This document shows positions 6,107 through 14,014 of a DNA stretch of 64,000 bases, one piece after another (the first letter of the stretch is position 1; each line of letters begins with the position of its first letter). Under the pieces are notes generated by a model. The model saw only the letters and a program-made list of their open reading frames with translations. It did no database searches and was not told the DNA's origin. The DNA is from Sphingomonas carotinifaciens. Its GTDB lineage: Bacteria > Pseudomonadota > Alphaproteobacteria > Sphingomonadales > Sphingomonadaceae. Location: positions 2,293,501-2,357,500 of the forward strand of contig NZ_WSUT01000005.1 in NCBI RefSeq assembly GCF_009789535.1, given 5' to 3'. The translations under genes were made by a program, and so were the position numbers.

Positions 6107-7405
6107 CTATCCCGCCCGCGCCAGCCGGTATCCCACCCGCCCGAACAGGATCAGTGCGACGGCCGACCCGACCAGCGTGGCCCCCGCCGCGCCCGTCGCG
6201 CCGTAGGCGGGCATCAGCACCGCCATCGCCGCGAACAGCGCGACGACCGATGCGACGCGGATGCGCAGCGCGGTCGCCGCCCGCCCGATCGCCAGCAGCA
6301 CCGGCTCGAACGCCACGCCCATGACCTCCAGCCCCGCCGCAAGCCCCAGCAGCACCAGCACCGGATACGCCCCCAGATAGGTCTTGCCCGCGATCAGCCG
6401 CAGCGCCGGCTCTCCCAGCAGGGGCACCAGCAGACAGATCGACCCACCCGCCACCAGCGCCAGCCGCGTCGATTGCCGGAACAGGGTCGTCATGTCCCGC
6501 TTGTCCCCTTCCGCCCCCGCCCGCGTGAACTCGGGTAGCACCCCGCGCGAAAACATGTCGGACACGCGCGTCAAAGCCTGGCTCAACTGATAGGCCAGCC
6601 GGTACGCGCCCGCCGCCGCCGGGCCCGTCGCAAAGCCGACCAGCACCACCACCACCTGCTTGCTCGCGGCGTTCAGCGAGGCGTTCATGTTGGTCACCAC
6701 TGCGAAATGCCACAGCCCCGCATTTTCGCGCGGCGCGGCCTGTGCCCCGCGCCACCATCCCAGCAGGCCCGGCGCCGCCCGGTGGGCCGCCGTCCAGTAG
6801 ACGATGGCGGTCAGCACCTCGGCCCCCGCCCAGGCGAGCAGGAACCCCTGCACCGTCGCATGCATCAGCACCGCGGTGACCGCGCCGGCACAGCGCGCGA
6901 AGGGGGTCACCGCATCCGCCATCGCGCCCACCGCGAACCGGTCGTGCAGCCTCAGGATGCCGACCGCGGTCGATCGAAAGGTCAGCAGCAGCACGAAGCA
7001 GAACAGCAGGGCCTCGGTCGCGAAGGTCGCATCCCATCCCAGCCGCACGCGCAACACGGCGACCGCGACGCTCGCCACCAGGCACCCGAACAGCGCCGCG
7101 CCCAGGTCGAGCGCGGTGCACCAGCGCACCAGCCGCCCCAGCATCGCCCCGTCACCCGCCTTCAGCGGCGCCATGCCGTAGCGCACCACCACCTGCCATG
7201 TCTGGAAACCGACCAGCGCGGCGACCGCCTGGCCGGTCGACAGGATCAGCGTGAACTCGCCGAACCGCACGACGCCCAGCGAGCGCGTGGCGAGCGCCAG
7301 ATAGACGAGGCTGAGTACCGCGCCGACGCCTTTGCCGGTCAGCAGCCAGCCGACATTGCGCAGCGCACGGCCGAATGGGGTCGGCGCGGACTTGGACACG
7401 TTCAA
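6107..7405 (-). CDS. Polysaccharide/lipid flippase (Wzx/MATE-like)
   Basis: Multi-pass inner-membrane protein of 432 residues resembling oligosaccharide flippases, which move lipid-linked glycans across the inner membrane. The N-terminus FGRALRNVGWLLTGKGVGAVLSLVYLALATRSLG (about 12-45) matches the usual first helix of that superfamily, including the charged amphipathic lead and an ATRSLG turn; about twelve hydrophobic segments follow. It is divergent, over 45 bp, from the two CDP-glycerol-transferase-like genes, which supports a role in exporting a surface glycan. It converges on the GH15 gene with a 4-bp gap. The precise substrate is unknown. Confidence 0.85.
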   Translation of the reverse strand: MNVSKSAPTPFGRALRNVGWLLTGKGVGAVLSLVYLALATRSLGVVRFGEFTLILSTGQAVAALVGFQTWQVVVRYGMAPLKAGDGAMLGRLVRWCTALDLGAALFGCLVASVAVAVLRVRLGWDATFATEALLFCFVLLLTFRSTAVGILRLHDRFAVGAMADAVTPFARCAGAVTAVLMHATVQGFLLAWAGAEVLTAIVYWTAAHRAAPGLLGWWRGAQAAPRENAGLWHFAVVTNMNASLNAASKQVVVVLVGFATGPAAAGAYRLAYQLSQALTRVSDMFSRGVLPEFTRAGAEGDKRDMTTLFRQSTRLALVAGGSICLLVPLLGEPALRLIAGKTYLGAYPVLVLLGLAAGLEVMGVAFEPVLLAIGRAATALRIRVASVVALFAAMAVLMPAYGATGAAGATLVGSAVALILFGRVGYRLARAG

Positions 7406-7450: not shown

Positions 7451-8563
7451 ATGCGCATCGCCTTCCTCTATATCGCCGAAGCCTATCAGTGCTACCATGG
7501 CGCGGCCATCGCGTTCGAATTGGCGCGCCGCCCCGGCTGGACGGTGGTCAACTACCATAACGATCCCGAAACGCCGCATCACCTGGAGCGGATACGTGCC
7601 GCTTACGGCGTGCCGCCGATCGAAACCCGCCGCCTGCACCGGTCGCCGCTCACCGTCGCGCTTCAGCGGCTGAAGCGGCTGGGCATGTTCAAGGATCTGG
7701 TGATGCGTGACAATGCCGCCGAACTGGACGGCTATGACGCGATCTTTGCGGTGGAGGATACGGCGGCGGCGCTGCGCCGCCTCGGCGTCCGGCGCCCCCG
7801 GCTGATCTACCATCCCCACGGCGTCGGCGACCGGGCGCGCGGCTTCGTGCGCGACATCGCGGTCTTCGACCATGTCTTGCTCGCCGGGCCCAAGACCGCC
7901 GAGCGCATGCTGCGCGAGGGGCTGATCCGCCCCGACGCCTATACGCTCACCGGATCGGTGAAGCTGGAAACCGGCTTCCGCGTCGGGGAGGTCGCAGCGC
8001 CGCTTTTCTCGCAAGCCGCGCCCACCGTCTTCTACAACGCCCACAAGGAACCGCGCCTGACCTCCTGGCATCGCTTCATCGAACCGATGCTCGCCGGCTT
8101 CGCGGCCGATCCCTCCCTCAACCTGATCGTCGCCCCCCACGTCAAACTCTTCCGCCGACACCCCGAACGCCACCGCACACACTGGCGCGCGCGCAGTACC
8201 CACAACGTCCTCATCGACCCCGGCTCCGACCGCTCCGTCGACATGACCTACGCCGTCGCCTCCGACATCTATGTCGGCGACGTCAGCAGCCAGGTGTACG
8301 AATTCCTGATGCGCCCGCGCCCTTGCGTCTTCCTGAACGCCCACCGCATCGACTGGCGCGACGACCCCAGCTTCGCCCACTGGCACCTCGGCGACGTCGT
8401 CGACGACCCCGCCGACCTGATGGCAGCGATCCATGCTGCGCCCGCGCGTCACGCCTTTTACCGCGCCCGGCAGGAGGCGATGGCCGATGCCTCGCTCGGC
8501 GATCGGTCGCCCGGTGCCGCTGCCCGGGCGGCACAGGCCGTCGCGGCGGTGCTGGCGCGGTGA
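7451..8563 (+). CDS. CDP-glycerol glycerophosphotransferase-like GT-B enzyme, copy 1
   Basis: 370 residues with a GT-B-like layout. RLIYHPHGVGDRARGF (about 117-132) and the C-terminal segment SVDMTYAVASDIYVGDVSSQVYEFLMRPRPCVFLN resemble the nucleotide-sugar/CDP-polyol binding half of the TagF/capsule phosphotransferase family (PF04464-like). Such enzymes add glycerol-phosphate or a similar phospho-polyol to a glycan. No signal peptide or membrane span is evident, so it would work on the cytoplasmic face. Its TGA overlaps the GTG start of a paralogue (8560-8563), showing coupling. The donor substrate is not determinable; a plain glycosyltransferase is the alternative. Confidence 0.75.
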   Translation: MRIAFLYIAEAYQCYHGAAIAFELARRPGWTVVNYHNDPETPHHLERIRAAYGVPPIETRRLHRSPLTVALQRLKRLGMFKDLVMRDNAAELDGYDAIFAVEDTAAALRRLGVRRPRLIYHPHGVGDRARGFVRDIAVFDHVLLAGPKTAERMLREGLIRPDAYTLTGSVKLETGFRVGEVAAPLFSQAAPTVFYNAHKEPRLTSWHRFIEPMLAGFAADPSLNLIVAPHVKLFRRHPERHRTHWRARSTHNVLIDPGSDRSVDMTYAVASDIYVGDVSSQVYEFLMRPRPCVFLNAHRIDWRDDPSFAHWHLGDVVDDPADLMAAIHAAPARHAFYRARQEAMADASLGDRSPGAAARAAQAVAAVLAR

Positions 8564-9735
8564 AGGTCGGCTTCCTCTTCAACCACGATGCGCTTCATCA
8601 GATCGGCCATACCGCGCCGATCATCGCGCAGATCGCGACTTTCCCGGATGTTCAAGTCCACGTCCTGACCAGCTCGCCCGAGCAGCAGGCGCGGGTTCGC
8701 GCCGTAATCGGCACGGAGGTGGCCGCCCGCGTCACCTTTGTTTCGCTCGATATCGGCGCGCTTGCCCGTGCATTCGATGCCGGGCTGCGCTGGATCGCAC
8801 CCTTCCGCCGGGTTGCGGTTTTACGCGACAACCTGCCGGCCTTTGCAGCGCTCGATGTTCTGGTGGTGCCCGAGACGACATCGCTGCTGCTGCGCGACCG
8901 TTTCGGCCTGCGGGATCTCCGCTATGTCTGGCTTCCCCACGGCGCCGGCGATCGATCGGTGGGGTACCGGAGCGTCATGCGTGGCTTCGACCTCGTATTG
9001 CTGTCCGGGCAGAAGGTGCATGACCGGATGCAGGCGATGGGCCTGATCGCGCCGGGCCAAGCACGGATCATCGGCTATCCCAAGTTCGACACGATCGATT
9101 TCACTACGCCGCCCAAGCCGTTGTTCGACAATGGCCGCCCGACCGTCCTCTACAATCCGCATTTCGAACCCCGTCTGTCGTCCTGGTACGGGATGGGGGA
9201 GGGGGTGATGGACTGGTTCGCCGGACAGGATCGCTTCAACCTGATGGTCGCGCCCCACGTCATGCTGTTCCGCAGGCGCATCCATGCCTCCGTCGAACAC
9301 GCCCGGCTGCGCTGGCGCCGCGACCTTGCCCATCGCTACCGCGCTTGCCCGAACATCCGCTTCGACCCCGGCAGCACCGCCTCTGTCGACATGACCTATA
9401 CCCGCGCCGCCGACATCTACCTCGGCGACGTCAGCAGCCAGATCTACGAATGGATCGCCCGCCCACGCCCCGCCGTCTTCCTCAACCCGGCCAGGGTCGA
9501 ATGGACATCCGACCCCAATTTTGGCCACTGGCATCTGGGGCGCGTGGTGGATGATATCTCCGCCCTCGGCCCCGCCATCGAAAGTGCGCAGGCGGAGTTC
9601 GCCGGCTACCGTGCGGCCCAGGAAGCGGCCTTCCGCCACACCTTCGATCAAGGCGCCGAACCCGCCGCCCTGCGCGCCGCGCATGCGATCGTGGAGCGGT
9701 TCGGCAAAGACGCCAAGGGGAGGGGAAAACCATGA
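8560..9735 (+). CDS. CDP-glycerol glycerophosphotransferase-like GT-B enzyme, copy 2
   Basis: 391 residues from a GTG start at 8560, chosen because the protein then begins VKVGFLFNHDALHQIGH, aligned with the MRIAFLYIAEAYQCYHG start of copy 1, and because GTGA couples it to that gene. Shared landmarks are VWLPHGAGDRSVGYRSVM, VLYNPHFEPRLSSWY, NLMVAPHVMLFRR and SVDMTYTRAADIYLGDVSSQIYEW, all with counterparts in copy 1. The two are thus an old tandem duplication, possibly acting in successive or alternating transfer steps on a phosphoglycan. Its own stop overlaps the downstream kinase gene in ATGA (9732-9735). Confidence 0.75.
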   Translation: MKVGFLFNHDALHQIGHTAPIIAQIATFPDVQVHVLTSSPEQQARVRAVIGTEVAARVTFVSLDIGALARAFDAGLRWIAPFRRVAVLRDNLPAFAALDVLVVPETTSLLLRDRFGLRDLRYVWLPHGAGDRSVGYRSVMRGFDLVLLSGQKVHDRMQAMGLIAPGQARIIGYPKFDTIDFTTPPKPLFDNGRPTVLYNPHFEPRLSSWYGMGEGVMDWFAGQDRFNLMVAPHVMLFRRRIHASVEHARLRWRRDLAHRYRACPNIRFDPGSTASVDMTYTRAADIYLGDVSSQIYEWIARPRPAVFLNPARVEWTSDPNFGHWHLGRVVDDISALGPAIESAQAEFAGYRAAQEAAFRHTFDQGAEPAALRAAHAIVERFGKDAKGRGKP

Positions 9736-10544
9736 CCTACGGTCGCGAAGAAGCGTGTGCGGCGATAGCAATGCCGCCGGGGCTCGCAACCGTAACGATG
9801 GGCTACCGGTGGATGCACAACATGATCGGCGAATCCGGTGGCGGCGTGTATCGCTTGCACGGCAGACAGGATGCACCCGACCTCTTCCTGAAACATGGTC
9901 GGGGCATGGTGGCCGATGACATAGCCGACGAAATGGTCCGCCTGCGCTGGCTGAGCGATCATATAGCCGTGCCGACCATTCGGCGTTTCGTCCATACGGG
10001 GGACGAGGCTTGGTTGTTGATGACGGCCATACCCGGCCAGACGGCATATCAGCATCTGACAGCTCGCCCGCATGATCGCCTCGCCGTGGTAGATGCATTG
10101 GCCACATTCCTCCGGCAGCTTCACGCCATTCCGGTCGACACATGCCCCTTCATCAGCGACCATCATCACCGCCTGATGCAAGCCAGAGCGCGCATCGACC
10201 AGGGCCTCGTCGCGGAAGATGAATTTGATGAGGAACGTGAGGGCTGGCTGGCCGAGGAGGTATGGCAAGCCATGCAGGACCTGATGCCGTTCACCCCCGA
10301 CCGCGTCGTGACCCATGGCGACTTCTCGCTCGACAACATCTTGCTGGAAGATGGCCAGGTCGTCGGGCTGATCGATGCCGGACGGATCGGTATTGCCGAC
10401 CGCTACCAGGACATTGCGATCCTGTGGAACTGTCTGGGCGAGTTCGACGATGCGCTTCGTTCACACTTCCTGAGGCGCTACGGAGTTGCGGACGTGGACA
10501 ATCGCAAACTGCAATTTCACCTCATGCTGGATGAAATGTTCTAA
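9732..10544 (+). CDS. Aminoglycoside 3'-phosphotransferase, APH(3')-I-like
   Basis: 270-residue kinase that closely follows the APH(3') family from end to end, most strikingly the class I enzymes of Tn903 type (271 residues, from memory). Conserved blocks: ELFLKHGKG-like DLFLKHGRG near 50, ADEMVRLRWLS, DEAWLLMTAIPGQTAYQ, the catalytic loop VVTHGDFSLDNILLEDGQ, the metal-binding segment GLIDAGRIGIADRYQDIAILW, and the C-terminal KLQFHLMLDEMF. The catalytic Asp (HGD), the Asn of SLDN and the metal Asp of IDAGR are intact, so activity is plausible. Family chemistry is ATP-dependent 3'-phosphorylation of kanamycin/neomycin. Here it is translationally coupled to two glycan-type genes and has no mobile element beside it, so it may be a resident gene with another natural sugar substrate. 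Codon use looks slightly less G+C-rich than its neighbours. Confidence 0.9.
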   Translation: MTYGREEACAAIAMPPGLATVTMGYRWMHNMIGESGGGVYRLHGRQDAPDLFLKHGRGMVADDIADEMVRLRWLSDHIAVPTIRRFVHTGDEAWLLMTAIPGQTAYQHLTARPHDRLAVVDALATFLRQLHAIPVDTCPFISDHHHRLMQARARIDQGLVAEDEFDEEREGWLAEEVWQAMQDLMPFTPDRVVTHGDFSLDNILLEDGQVVGLIDAGRIGIADRYQDIAILWNCLGEFDDALRSHFLRRYGVADVDNRKLQFHLMLDEMF

Positions 10545-10579
10545 GCTGCGGCATCGCCCCGATATCGCGCATATCCTTT

Positions 10580-11245
10580 TCACCACCGCTCGATCGGCCA
10601 CCCGCGCTCGACCGCCAGTACGGTCATCCTTTTACCCGGGCTGACTACCACCGGCTCGTCAGCCCAGGCGAAGGTCGGGGCATCGGACGCATGATCCGAA
10701 TAAAAGCGCACATGCGCCTCCTCGCGTTTAACACCCTGAGCGGCCAGCCAATCCCGGATCATCGCCAGCTTGGCCGGGCCGTAACAGTTGGCGCCCGACA
10801 GCGACGGCACGATCCGCCCGGTGGTATCCCGCATCGCCTCCGTCGCGATCAGGTCCTCCACGCCCAGCCGACTGGCAATCGCCTGTGCATAGAAGCGATG
10901 TGCAGCCGTCGCGATCACGATGCGATAGCCCACCGCCCGGTCCGCCGCCATCCGTTCTCTTGCGCCCGGCCGGATGTTGCCGTCGTCCGTCATGGCGGCG
11001 AATGCCTCCGCCAGCGCGGTCGACCTGGCTTCATCCAGCGCCGCACCCAGCATCAACCGGTGCATGATCGGCTTCAACCGGTCACGGTCGTACAGCTTCA
11101 GCGCGTGCAGCAATGCGGCACCCGCGGCCACCGGCGCCATCGCGATGCGCCAACTGCCGCGCGCGGCATGAAGCAGAAAGGGGGTCCAGGTCGGCGCGCG
11201 TGTGATCGTGCGGTCCAGATCGTAGATTGCGATGCGCTGCATCAA
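10580..11245 (-). CDS. HAD-IB family phosphatase (PgpC/SerB-like)
   Basis: 221-residue haloacid-dehalogenase-type phosphatase. Motif I is IYDLDRTIT with Asp9 as nucleophile and Asp11 as acid/base; Thr in VIATAAH marks motif II; FYSDHASDAPTF is the acidic metal-binding motif IV. The family includes phosphoserine phosphatases and the phosphatidylglycerophosphate phosphatase PgpC. The ATG at 11245 gives a 4-nt overlap with the upstream gene's stop; ATG 11242 is also possible. Last gene of an operon with lipid-kinase-like and nucleotidyltransferase genes, so removal of a phosphate from a lipid or polyol-phosphate intermediate is the best guess. Confidence 0.83.
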   Translation of the reverse strand: MMQRIAIYDLDRTITRAPTWTPFLLHAARGSWRIAMAPVAAGAALLHALKLYDRDRLKPIMHRLMLGAALDEARSTALAEAFAAMTDDGNIRPGARERMAADRAVGYRIVIATAAHRFYAQAIASRLGVEDLIATEAMRDTTGRIVPSLSGANCYGPAKLAMIRDWLAAQGVKREEAHVRFYSDHASDAPTFAWADEPVVVSPGKRMTVLAVERGWPIERW

Positions 11246-11988
11246 CCGGCGTCCAGTGTCCGCGCCAGTGCCAGATCTTCCGGCTTGTCGACATCAACCG
11301 CCGCGCGTCCGAACCGGCTGGCGACCATCGCGGCGCGCACCCGCGCAGTTTCTCCGATCCGTTGCAATGCCATGTCCAGCGTCAGCCGCCCGGCCAGGTA
11401 GCGCAGCAGCAGTCCCGGCCCCAGCCGACGCACGATCCGCCAGGGCCGCTTGCGATCCCGCTCCATCCGCTGCCAGAGCGCCACCGCGTCGGCCGCCGCG
11501 GCAGTCTGCAACAGGAACAGGTTGCAACCCGACCAGGCGCCATCGGCAAAGCGCAGATAGGTACGCTGCGTACCGGGCACGTCGCGCTCGATCACGTCAC
11601 GCCGTGCCAGCAGCACCGCAACATCGGCGTCCGTCGGCACGTCGGCGATGAACCGGGTGATCCATCCGGCCTCCAGCAGGGCATGGTCCGCAGTAGTCAC
11701 GAGCAACGGCGCGCCAAGCTGTTCCAATCCTGCGGCCGTACTCGCGCTCGGGCCCGCCGCTGCCTGCAGCACTTCGGCGCCCAATGCCGTCGCCGCCTGG
11801 GCCACAGCGGGGGAGGATGCCGCCACCATGATGCGATCCGCCCCGGCCGCGCGCACCGCCTCCACAACCCTGGCCAGCATCGTGCGACCACCGACCACGG
11901 CCAGCGCCTTGTCGCTCACCCCGGCGTGTAGCGCGACCGGGTCTGGGCCGCCGCGGGAGCCGGCCAGGATCAGCGCGTGGAAGCTCAT
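11242..11988 (-). CDS. MobA-like NTP transferase domain protein
   Basis: About 248 residues with the NTP_transf_3 (MobA/CofC/IspD-like) fold. ALILAGSRGGPDP at residues 5-17 is the nucleotide-binding loop, with the following Lys in DKALAVVGG; LLVTTADHALL holds the metal-binding Asp, and SGCNLFLL plus VDVDKPEDLALA are later family signatures. Such enzymes join a nucleoside monophosphate to a phosphorylated small molecule, for example phosphocholine, inositol-phosphate or a molybdopterin. The ATG at 11988 overlaps the stop of the preceding gene. Neighbours point to making an activated head group rather than a cofactor, but this is inference. Confidence 0.8.
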   Translation of the reverse strand: MSFHALILAGSRGGPDPVALHAGVSDKALAVVGGRTMLARVVEAVRAAGADRIMVAASSPAVAQAATALGAEVLQAAAGPSASTAAGLEQLGAPLLVTTADHALLEAGWITRFIADVPTDADVAVLLARRDVIERDVPGTQRTYLRFADGAWSGCNLFLLQTAAAADAVALWQRMERDRKRPWRIVRRLGPGLLLRYLAGRLTLDMALQRIGETARVRAAMVASRFGRAAVDVDKPEDLALARTLDAG

Positions 11989-12896
11989 CGTGGCGCCTCC
12001 GCCGACCGCGCGCGCATCACCCGCCACAACACTGCCGGTGCCGCCAGCACCGGGTGCCGTTCGCGCCACGGGGTCAGGGGAATGTGGATGCCGGTATGCC
12101 GCTCGATCTTCCATAGCCCGTATCGGGCCGCCCCGTCGAAGGTGAAGGCCGCCTTCACCAGCCGCGCCACGTTCAACGGCCTGCCCGCACGCCGCCGAGC
12201 CTGCCACCGCCGCAGTGGGCGCGCGCGGTCGCCCGAGGGTGTCAGCAACTCACCGTGCGTGTCGTACCCGATGCCGCCTGCGTTCCAGGCCAGCGGCAAC
12301 AGACGCTGCCACCGCGCCGGATCGTAGCGCAGGATCTGGTCCTCGCGACCGGGCTTCTCCACGCGCAGTTCGGCCCGGTAGGTCTGACGGAACAGTGCCC
12401 GCCAATAGCTGTCGGCGGTGCCGTTCTCAGGGCCCAGCGCCGCGGCATATCCCGCCGCCGTCACCGTCGCTGCCGCCACACTCGCGCGAACCCGGGCTGC
12501 GGCGTCCGCATCCCGAACCCAGGCCAGCGCCGCCGGCTGCACGAAGCGCGTCCAGATCGTCGTATCCAGCATCCGCCCCGATGCGGCATCCTGAAAGGTC
12601 TGCAGCGGCATCGTCGCCACCTTCGCCCGCAGCACGGCATCACCGATCGCCATTTCGTGAAAGCTCACATCGGGCCACAGCCACCGCGTTGCCGTCCGGT
12701 GCAGCACGCCGCCACGACGCGCATCGGTCAGGACGTAGAAATCCAGCACGCCGTCCAGATCGCCGGTCCGCAGTACCGATCCATAGAACAGGACGGCGGC
12801 GACATCCACATCGCCCGCCAGGCGTTCCGCCACCATCGCGATGGGCGGGGGCAGGGGCGTCGCCAGCTCCGCCGCGACGAAGTCGTCCAGCGTCAT
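11985..12896 (-). CDS. Nucleotidyltransferase-domain protein of unknown function
   Basis: 303 residues. VAAVLFYGSVLRTGDLDGVLDFYVLTDARR (about 33-62) resembles the GS...D-x-D active site of the polymerase-beta-like nucleotidyltransferase superfamily, although the second Asp is offset. The rest has no signature I recognise; the middle contains many aromatic and Arg residues (YWRALFRQTYRAELRVEKPGRE). Start ATG 12896 lies 8 bp after the stop of the diacylglycerol-kinase-like gene and its own stop overlaps the NTP-transferase start, so it is locked into this operon. A function in modifying a lipid or glycan precursor is a guess from context. Confidence 0.65.
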   Translation of the reverse strand: MTLDDFVAAELATPLPPPIAMVAERLAGDVDVAAVLFYGSVLRTGDLDGVLDFYVLTDARRGGVLHRTATRWLWPDVSFHEMAIGDAVLRAKVATMPLQTFQDAASGRMLDTTIWTRFVQPAALAWVRDADAAARVRASVAAATVTAAGYAAALGPENGTADSYWRALFRQTYRAELRVEKPGREDQILRYDPARWQRLLPLAWNAGGIGYDTHGELLTPSGDRARPLRRWQARRRAGRPLNVARLVKAAFTFDGAARYGLWKIERHTGIHIPLTPWRERHPVLAAPAVLWRVMRARSAEAPR

Positions 12897-12904
12897 CGTA
12901 CGGC

Positions 12905-14014
12905 TCAGGGCACCACGAAGTTGAGCGCGCGGCCCTGGGCAACGATCAACTCGCCACCGGCATAGGTCTCGCCATCCAGCACGAAGCCGGTGTCCAGCGT
13001 CAGGCCGACGCGGTTCGCATCCAGCCGATGATAGCCGGCGCGCGCCAGCCATCCCGCCTCCGACCCCGCCACCAGGATCGGTGCGGAGACGAACAGCGCC
13101 TTGGGAGGCGCATCAACCCCCAGCAGCTTCATGCCGGGCCGCGGCCGACCGAACGGCTTCAATCCGAGCGGCAGGCGCTCCAGCGTCGATGCCAGAAGCA
13201 GGTAGAAGGGCCGTTCCACGCTGCGCCCGTCATCCAGTTCAACCCGGATCGGATCGCCGCGCCGCCAGACATTGTCTCGCCCGCCGAACAGCGTCTGCGC
13301 GATCCCGCCTGCCAGAGACAGGCCGACCGCCAGACCGTTGAAGGCGCCGATCCGGTGGGTTTCCTGGGCCAGCGCCGTGGCACGCACGAACGCGCCGGCG
13401 CCGAACAGAAAGCCGACCCGCATCGGCTCACGACCGTCCACCCGGCGGATTTCCACGGGCGAACGCTGCGTGCGGGACGGACCATGGATCGCCTCGATCG
13501 CCGCCTTGATCGTCCAGTTGGTGGGTATGCCCAGGTCGATGGCCAGAGCATTGGTCTTGCCCGCCGGCACGACCGCGATATCCGGCATCGCATCGCCGAA
13601 ATGCTGTGTCGCCGCGGTAATGACATCGCGGATCGTGCCGTCGCCGCCGTCGATCAGCAGCGCGTCGATCCCCCGCGAGGCGAAGCGGGCGAGAACCGCG
13701 TGCAATTCCTCCTGCGTGCGCGGTGCGGCAAAGTCGATGCCCGACGCACTGGTGAACGGCGAGAGCTCACGGGACAGGTTGCGGTGCGCGCGGGCGTTGC
13801 AGATCACGCCGATCCGCTGCACGCCGCCCAGTCGCCGCCCATCCAGACGCACGGTCTGGGCCGGGCGCCGGACGCGGAACTCCGCCGAGGTGAGCCGCGC
13901 CAGCCCGCCGTCGATCCGGCCGATCAACCCATCACTTCCGTCGATCGGCATCCTGATCGGCATCGACCACTTCATCCTTCGCTGGCCGCACACGGCATGA
14001 ACATCTTCAGCCAT
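12905..14014 (-). CDS. Diacylglycerol kinase-like lipid kinase (DAGK/YegS family)
   Basis: Up to 369 residues. The ATP-binding signature IDALLIDGGDGTIRDVITA (near 115-133), preceded by VICNARAHRN and followed by DIAVVPAGKTNALAIDLG, is diagnostic for the DAGK catalytic domain (PF00781). These enzymes phosphorylate diacylglycerol, sphingosine or related lipids at the cytoplasmic membrane face; sphingomonads contain sphingolipids, so a ceramide/sphingoid substrate is worth considering. Start is uncertain: ATG 14014 gives the longest form, ATG 13975 or 13963 are alternatives and none has a strong Shine-Dalgarno. First gene of the four-gene operon running to 10580. Confidence 0.85.
   Translation of the reverse strand: MAEDVHAVCGQRRMKWSMPIRMPIDGSDGLIGRIDGGLARLTSAEFRVRRPAQTVRLDGRRLGGVQRIGVICNARAHRNLSRELSPFTSASGIDFAAPRTQEELHAVLARFASRGIDALLIDGGDGTIRDVITAATQHFGDAMPDIAVVPAGKTNALAIDLGIPTNWTIKAAIEAIHGPSRTQRSPVEIRRVDGREPMRVGFLFGAGAFVRATALAQETHRIGAFNGLAVGLSLAGGIAQTLFGGRDNVWRRGDPIRVELDDGRSVERPFYLLLASTLERLPLGLKPFGRPRPGMKLLGVDAPPKALFVSAPILVAGSEAGWLARAGYHRLDANRVGLTLDTGFVLDGETYAGGELIVAQGRALNFVVP

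Follow-up and report, generated by a model that had tools for sequence, protein, structure and literature searches.

A 64,000-nt stretch of the Sphingomonas carotinifaciens chromosome (contig NZ_WSUT01000005.1; hereafter, the window) carries, at positions 9732 to 10544 of the (+) strand, a gene for a predicted APH(3')-I-type aminoglycoside 3'-O-phosphotransferase of 270 amino acids (aa), assigned by family model, sequence, fold, and contact residues. A sequence-only reading of this DNA had described a full-length APH(3')-I protein with three telling motifs, and this description holds: VVTHGDFSLDN, GIADRYQD, and KLQFHLMLDE are all present in the translated open reading frame (ORF), which scored 446.5 bits against the NCBIfam APH(3')-I model NF033059 (cut-off, 400 bits). 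The ortholog in another Sphingomonas genome (G667) and the nearest database relative of the window protein (P0002) scored 443.5 and 450.3 bits, respectively. Against the narrower APH(3')-Ia model (NF051474), the kinase reached 350.4 bits, below the cut-off of 625 bits, and its match to the Pfam APH family was 122 bits. A phmmer search of solved structures returned APH(3')-Ia as the best hit (E = 9e-103), covering residues 5 to 270 of the kinase.

The APH(3')-I motif list and the nine residues through which APH(3')-Ia contacts kanamycin were taken from PMC10493288. The family motifs V--HGD----N, G--D-GR-G, and D--R/K--F/Y---LDE appear in the kinase as VVTHGDFSLDN, GLIDAGRIG, and DNRKLQFHLMLDE, respectively. 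Eight of the nine contact residues are the same; the ninth, D165, is E. Of 201 family proteins, counting that of the window, 12 have E at this position and 185 have D. The AlphaFold2 model of the kinase (mean predicted local distance difference test [pLDDT] score, 90.8) matched kanamycin-bound APH(3')-Ia best (4fev_E), with a template modeling (TM) score of 0.96, a root mean square deviation of 1.0 Å, and 55% identity. Given the family score, the structure overlay, and the contacts retained at eight of nine positions, we regard the protein, in sequence and fold, as a genuine member of the APH(3')-I family with predicted activity.

The gene lies in a cluster of surface-glycan genes, arranged in the window as flippase (−), T1 (+), T2 (+), kinase (+), HAD (−), nucleoside triphosphate (NTP)-transferase (−), unknown (−), and DAGK (−). 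Specifically, a Wzx-like polysaccharide flippase (6107 to 7405; Pfam Polysacc_synt), which adjoins T1-T2 in most relatives mapped, precedes T1 (7451 to 8563), a CDP-glycerol glycerophosphotransferase-like protein whose Pfam Glyphos_transf match is weak yet above threshold (25.2 versus 22.1 bits). T2 (8560 to 9735) has no Pfam match. Since T1 has its Pfam match and T2 is a 43% paralog of T1, it was fair to describe them as two CDP-glycerol-transferase-like genes, as the sequence-only reading did. Two more T1 paralogs (53 to 54% identity) lie elsewhere in the genome (G000:C5:2908619-2909728 and 1535708-1536817), and a sequence search found no solved-structure relative of T1. The reported ATGA coupling is also present, the ATG of the kinase overlapping the TGA of T2 at 9732 to 9735 on the (+) strand. 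Next come a HAD-IB family phosphatase (10580 to 11245), convergent with T2, and three genes assigned to the same cluster by mapping in relatives: a MobA-like NTP/cytidylyl transferase (11242 to 12027; also by Pfam scan), a conserved 303-aa protein of unassigned family with no Pfam match (11985 to 12896), and a DAGK_cat lipid-kinase-like protein (12905 to 13975; also by Pfam scan). The 303-aa protein, which adjoins the DAGK gene, recurs in 14 of the 15 mapped relatives, the exception being the stretch from G566. Because the genes from HAD onward lie on the other strand, the kinase is the final gene of the (+)-strand T1-T2 run and is not, as had been proposed, embedded in an operon.

No transposase or integrase family was detected by Pfam among the 20 ORF entries scanned between 37 and 19216 (a set with overlaps and some wrong-strand ORFs), attC sites not having been searched for, which agrees with the earlier statement that the gene has no transposon or integron context. 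Only weak repeats frame the kinase gene, and a scan with a defense-gene library returned nothing beyond a weak PD-T4-6 match (22 bits).

We mapped the cluster genes in 15 other genomes with a T1 relative of at least 69% identity (those at or below 62% fell outside the mapping). The kinase was at the junction in 2 of the 16 mapped genomes, i.e., in the window and G667, which align as a single collinear block (T1-T2-kinase-HAD) with identities of 92% for T1, 88% for T2, 72% for the kinase, and 82% for HAD. All seven other cluster genes were found without the kinase in 10 of the 14 remaining relatives (G539, G576, G615, G401, G438, G454, G482, G639, G475, and G424), in a rearranged order in some. 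In the stretches fetched from the other four, the missing genes were the NTP-transferase (G598), all those beyond T2 (G566), and HAD (G473 and G411). From the kinase-free relatives mapped, it therefore follows that the glycan cluster occurs without the kinase.

The unstranded stretch between T2 and HAD (9736 to 10579) is missing in eight of the 14 kinase-free genomes (G539, G576, G454, G482, G639, G598, G475, and G424), in which T2 and HAD adjoin. In seven of the eight, the convergent stop codons of T2 and HAD have 4 bases in common, exactly at the kinase site of the window; in G639, 95 bases separate them. In G401 and G438, the junction holds a DUF2141 gene (L201:6547-7023 and L202:6866-7330, respectively), with a likely signal peptide as judged by eye. 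Single genes thus enter and leave at the T2/HAD junction, which tolerates insertion. No kinase remnant was detected in the 12 of 14 kinase-free relatives searched (best E = 0.055). G539 has a kinase-free junction and carries a 67% kinase relative on another contig. As to whether the three-gene order recurs, a check suggested by the sequence-only reading, a comparison of the match positions listed found both T1 and the kinase matched in 12 of 294 other Sphingomonas genomes, the two adjoining in G667 alone; absence of the order from related strains, which that reading had named as counting against its proposal, is thus largely what we observed.

The kinase is the least conserved of the nine proteins compared between the window and G667. 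The ratio of nonsynonymous to synonymous divergence (dN/dS) of the kinase is ~0.20, which argues for purifying selection. With a GC content of 0.598, the gene has the lowest GC content at third codon positions (GC3; 0.716) of the 51 window gene calls of at least 450 bases made by our own gene finder (mean, 0.837; standard deviation, 0.042), and this low value is in keeping with a foreign origin.

Among ~5.8 billion proteins searched, the nearest was P0002 (a 95% cluster, two contigs), followed at 72% by P0003, which is identical to the G667 kinase protein. Next comes a broad cloud at 61 to 71% identity among the best 120 listed of 762. The source genome has a single kinase match, on a 3.35-Mb contig. 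A tblastn search of 72,556 plasmids gave, among the 5,000 best records, APH(3')-Ib (60% over 99% of the query) and APH(3')-Ia (~55 to 57%) as top rows. At the DNA level, 22 plasmid records matched at 60 to 80% identity, each over less than 80% of the gene; the plasmid rows among the matches listed were 66 to 67% identical over no more than 73% of the kinase gene. The Ebmeyer origin framework (PMC7782503) asks for high nucleotide identity to a mobile copy, with a figure of at least 95% given. Because no near-identical mobile copy was found, the kinase falls outside what that framework takes as a recent origin.

Every tree represents a hand-picked part of the sequences found. The main tree comprised 81 chosen proteins, 15 of 96 rows having been dropped as long, redundant, or artifactual, and a further 14 were dropped for a reduced tree of 67 rows; L086, L005, L167, L168, and L173 had been left out earlier for stop codons in the frame read. 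In the 81-protein tree, the kinase formed a clade with P0002 and G667 (support, 100/99). The window's group of 35 rows (91/81, below the threshold for a starred node) stood apart from the Ia/Ib group. APH(3')-Ia clustered with Citrobacter gillenii L091 and close relatives in an 11-row group (100/100), and a 22-row group (97/86) comprised Ia, Ib, Sphingomonas, Microvirga, Asticcacaulis, Afifella, Janthinobacterium, Burkholderia, and environmental sequences. In the 67-row tree, Ia and Ib grouped with 18 others, eight Ia-like and 10 environmental (90/80, not starred). Forcing the eight Ia-type rows and Ib into one clade was rejected (approximately unbiased test, p-AU = 0.0057), as was joining the window clade to the Ia rows (p-AU = 0.0009), while joining it to Ib was not (p-AU = 0.17). 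Leaving aside the 99% cluster of Ib itself, its closest relatives among those listed are 72 to 76% identical, with Sphingomonas among them. The plasmid identities (60% at the protein level, 66 to 67% in DNA) and the 100/99 clade uphold part of the earlier reading: the gene is a chromosomal APH(3')-I relative, diverged, not mobile looking, and not recently captured from the clinical genes.

Next, we examined the genomic contexts of relatives, using the best 80 of 363 candidate loci from a contig scan. Neighbor clustering of 51 loci (50 of these 80 plus the window) revealed no widely common neighbor family; among the 25 clusters listed, the largest span six loci at scattered positions. At least four groups of loci have common flanks. 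Specifically, L021 (Sphingomonas panni), L037 (an Erythrobacter metagenome-assembled genome [MAG]), L051 (Kaistia adipata), and L053 (Paracoccus sediminis) have seven neighbors in common, and their aph genes (~8001 to 8798) are 65 to 66% identical to the window gene. With a relaxase (DUF3363), DUF2840, a replication initiator, an S26 peptidase, and ArdA in its flanks, the L051 locus, the one annotated, is, judging by gene content, a putative integrative and conjugative element (ICE)-like element carrying a related kinase lineage. P0044, the protein cluster of these four genes, has 203 member sequences on 161 contigs. A Pfam scan of 179 neighbors (up to two per side of 47 loci, with L037, L051, and L053 omitted as near copies of L021) found one transposition family, IstB (IS21), and no other among the 25 commonest families per half (of 121 and 110).

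When 30 loci (from the L056 to L085 range, plus L090) were compared with L058, itself counted, 28 were ~99 to 100% identical to APH(3')-Ia. Many APH(3')-Ia-like loci sit on 3- to 7-kb contigs assigned to Streptomyces, Clostridiales, a cyanobacterium, and a Spartobacteria MAG, and such short contigs of unrelated taxa are probably vector or contaminant. In the same comparison with L058, L069 (Caldicoprobacter) and L091 (C. gillenii) were at 76%.

With a threshold of E up to 1e-20, 77 of the 295 Sphingomonas genomes, including the one the window comes from, had APH(3')-type matches. The set is narrower than the genus name, some contigs named Sphingomonas falling under the same-family genomes (G084 and G112). 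A full-length match (at least 230 residues) of at least 50% identity was present in 49 of the 77, and 13 had only matches below 45%. In nine genomes, at least one kinase copy has a stop or is a partial match, although some partials may represent contig ends; copies with internal stop codons were seen in G443, G502, G608, and G659, and partial matches elsewhere in Sphingomonas. These stop-bearing and partial copies suggest that the gene is also lost in the genus. G511 has a full-length 55% match on a 3,219-base contig, equal in length to L068, whose gene matches mobile APH(3')-Ia at 99.1% identity; the same genome also has a 52% copy.

In comparison, the class sample yielded one match in 289 genomes, the window's own, and the difference between 76 of 294 other Sphingomonas genomes and none of the 288 others in this sample is marked (Fisher's exact test, p ~1e-25). 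The phylum sample yielded 10 in 398, the nine others being just 36 to 39% identical. Within that range, a Sphingomonas sequence at 37% (L183) scored 352 bits, just below the APH(3')-II cut-off of 360 bits. APH(3')-I-type genes thus look common in Sphingomonas. Our search of the open-access literature, most subscription journals lying outside it, turned up no report in which the genus is treated as an APH(3')-I reservoir. PMC9503503 mentions strains from a single lichen population that were annotated with the APH(3') family, the isolates sequenced in that work including Sphingomonas and Pseudomonas; the passages of PMC11911422 consulted make no mention of Sphingomonas. Three points speak against a reservoir. 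In the family sample (12 matches in 397, the window's own counted), none of the 10 other same-genus genomes matched, which cautions against over-reading the 77 of 295; the deep rows of our trees were fetched only from Sphingomonadaceae; and the contig scan covered the best 80 of its 363 candidates.

Taken together, the sequence, the structural model, and the comparative analysis make it most likely that the gene is an acquired, selected, accessory aminoglycoside 3'-kinase that settled in a glycan-cluster junction and is read through from a resident operon. A lone accessory gene would have entered the junction of two convergent genes in an older surface-glycan cluster, before the split of the window species and G667, as the collinear block and common site suggest, and would since have been maintained under purifying selection. 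Standing directly behind T1-T2 on the same strand with no gap, it is probably read through from the T1-T2 promoter as the final gene of that transcript; the glycan genes would then give it location and transcription, but no substrate. Based on its sequence, its fold, and its characterized relatives, the enzyme would transfer a phosphate from a nucleotide triphosphate to the 3'-hydroxyl of aminoglycosides of the kanamycin and neomycin types, and the phosphorylated drugs would no longer bind the ribosome. One insertion inherited by both lineages is the simplest reading, as we infer it. Several observations weigh against this account. The synonymous divergence (dS) of the kinase between the window and G667 is 0.96, compared with 0.34 to 0.81 for eight neighboring genes; because the kinase value exceeds those of its neighbors, separate acquisitions or allele replacement at the one site may instead have occurred. 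Preferring insertion to repeated loss is an argument from parsimony that draws on no species tree. Nor is the ATGA overlap conserved: T2 extends into the kinase start in the window, whereas in G667 it ends with TAA ahead of the kinase gene. Finally, a promoter scan of 8500 to 11400 found no sites, although shuffled sequences lead one to expect just 0.5.

The sequence-only reading had considered a kinase recruited to phosphorylate a sugar of a surface polymer. In favor of such a role, on a sugar or alditol for the polymer of the T1/T2 cluster, are the position of the kinase directly after two CDP-glycerol-transferase-like genes, the ATGA overlap, and a neighborhood that includes a nucleotidyltransferase, a lipid kinase, and a phosphatase. 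We regard this role as very unlikely and rejected it because the complete set of other cluster genes persists without the kinase in relatives; in addition, relatives of the kinase occur among many unrelated genes, eight of the nine kanamycin contacts in the aminoglycoside pocket are kept, and the coupling to T2 fails in G667. Membership in the APH(3')-I family and the low GC3 would also suit a recently captured, mobile clinical resistance gene. This origin, which we consider extremely improbable, was rejected since near-identical DNA was not found among plasmids, the best rows being as distant as described above; the kinase also groups with its sister-species ortholog, and union with the Ia group, though not with Ib, is rejected.

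A gene of a housekeeping type, ancestral to Sphingomonas, vertically kept, and lost in most species, would account for the matches in 77 of 295 genomes and for the deep APH(3')-I branches of the sampled tree that come from Sphingomonadaceae; the latter evidence is biased because the deep rows were fetched only from that family. The sites, however, differ between genomes, as G539 illustrates with its kinase-free cluster and its relative on another contig, no neighbor family is widely shared, GC3 is atypical, and forcing the 39 Sphingomonadales rows together is rejected (p ~1e-103, in a test that is not exact, P0116 of Sphingomonas lying outside the group). We therefore consider this history unlikely. 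The earlier word "resident" accordingly stands only in part: the gene is chromosomal and not mobile looking, but its patchy occurrence in the genus and its GC3 make it look acquired.

Beyond the acquired accessory kinase proposed for the window, a more tentative and rather doubtful possibility is that APH(3')-I radiated as a roaming accessory family in Sphingomonas and related environmental bacteria, with Ia, Ib, and the ICE-like alphaproteobacterial lineage as separate escapes and the window gene as a settled chromosomal member. The wider lead is one environmental genus with unusually dense and diverse APH(3')-I kinases, clinical Ia and Ib being placed at separate points of a wider environmental diversity. 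The locus would also be an example of a single kinase gene that settled in a resident-operon junction with no visible mobile element. In practice, a Sphingomonas gene labeled "APH(3')-I" is more often diverged and of chromosomal type than it is clinical APH(3')-Ia, although one contig, that of G511, looks like the latter.

Compared with known systems, the kinase resembles APH(3')-Ia (Tn903 type; PDB 4FEU/4FEV) in full-length homology, overall fold (TM-score, 0.96), the catalytic D, HGD, and eight of nine contacts, but it is only ~55% identical, chromosomal, alone in a glycan-cluster junction, and outside the Ia group. APH(3')-Ib (IncP plasmids, e.g., R702) is closer in sequence (60% over 99% of the query), but it is plasmid borne, and its neighbors in the tree are other environmental sequences; according to PMC10493288, Ib is 58.7% identical to APH(3')-Id and is among the functionally characterized enzymes. 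Uncharacterized family members from Sphingomonas, Massilia, Duganella, and other taxa are 61 to 72% identical among the best 120 listed beyond P0002, most of those named bearing the APH(3')-I family label, but they occupy other genomic places, and of the genomes compared only G667 shares the site. PMC10493288 and PMC11320999 describe APH(3')-Id of Kluyvera intermedia (77.5% identical to Ia) and APH(3')-Ie of C. gillenii (74.9%), respectively, as chromosomal and functional with no mobile element near, and report that such chromosomal relatives, at 75 to 77% to Ia, phosphorylate or resist kanamycin; for APH(3')-Id on kanamycin, PMC10493288 gives a kcat/Km near 1e5 per M per s. The window gene, likewise a chromosomal APH(3')-I with no mobile element found nearby, is more distant (~55% to Ia), whereas C. 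gillenii L091 falls in the Ia group. In this sense, the window gene is ordinary: one more uncharacterized APH(3')-I and a distant member of the published chromosomal kind.

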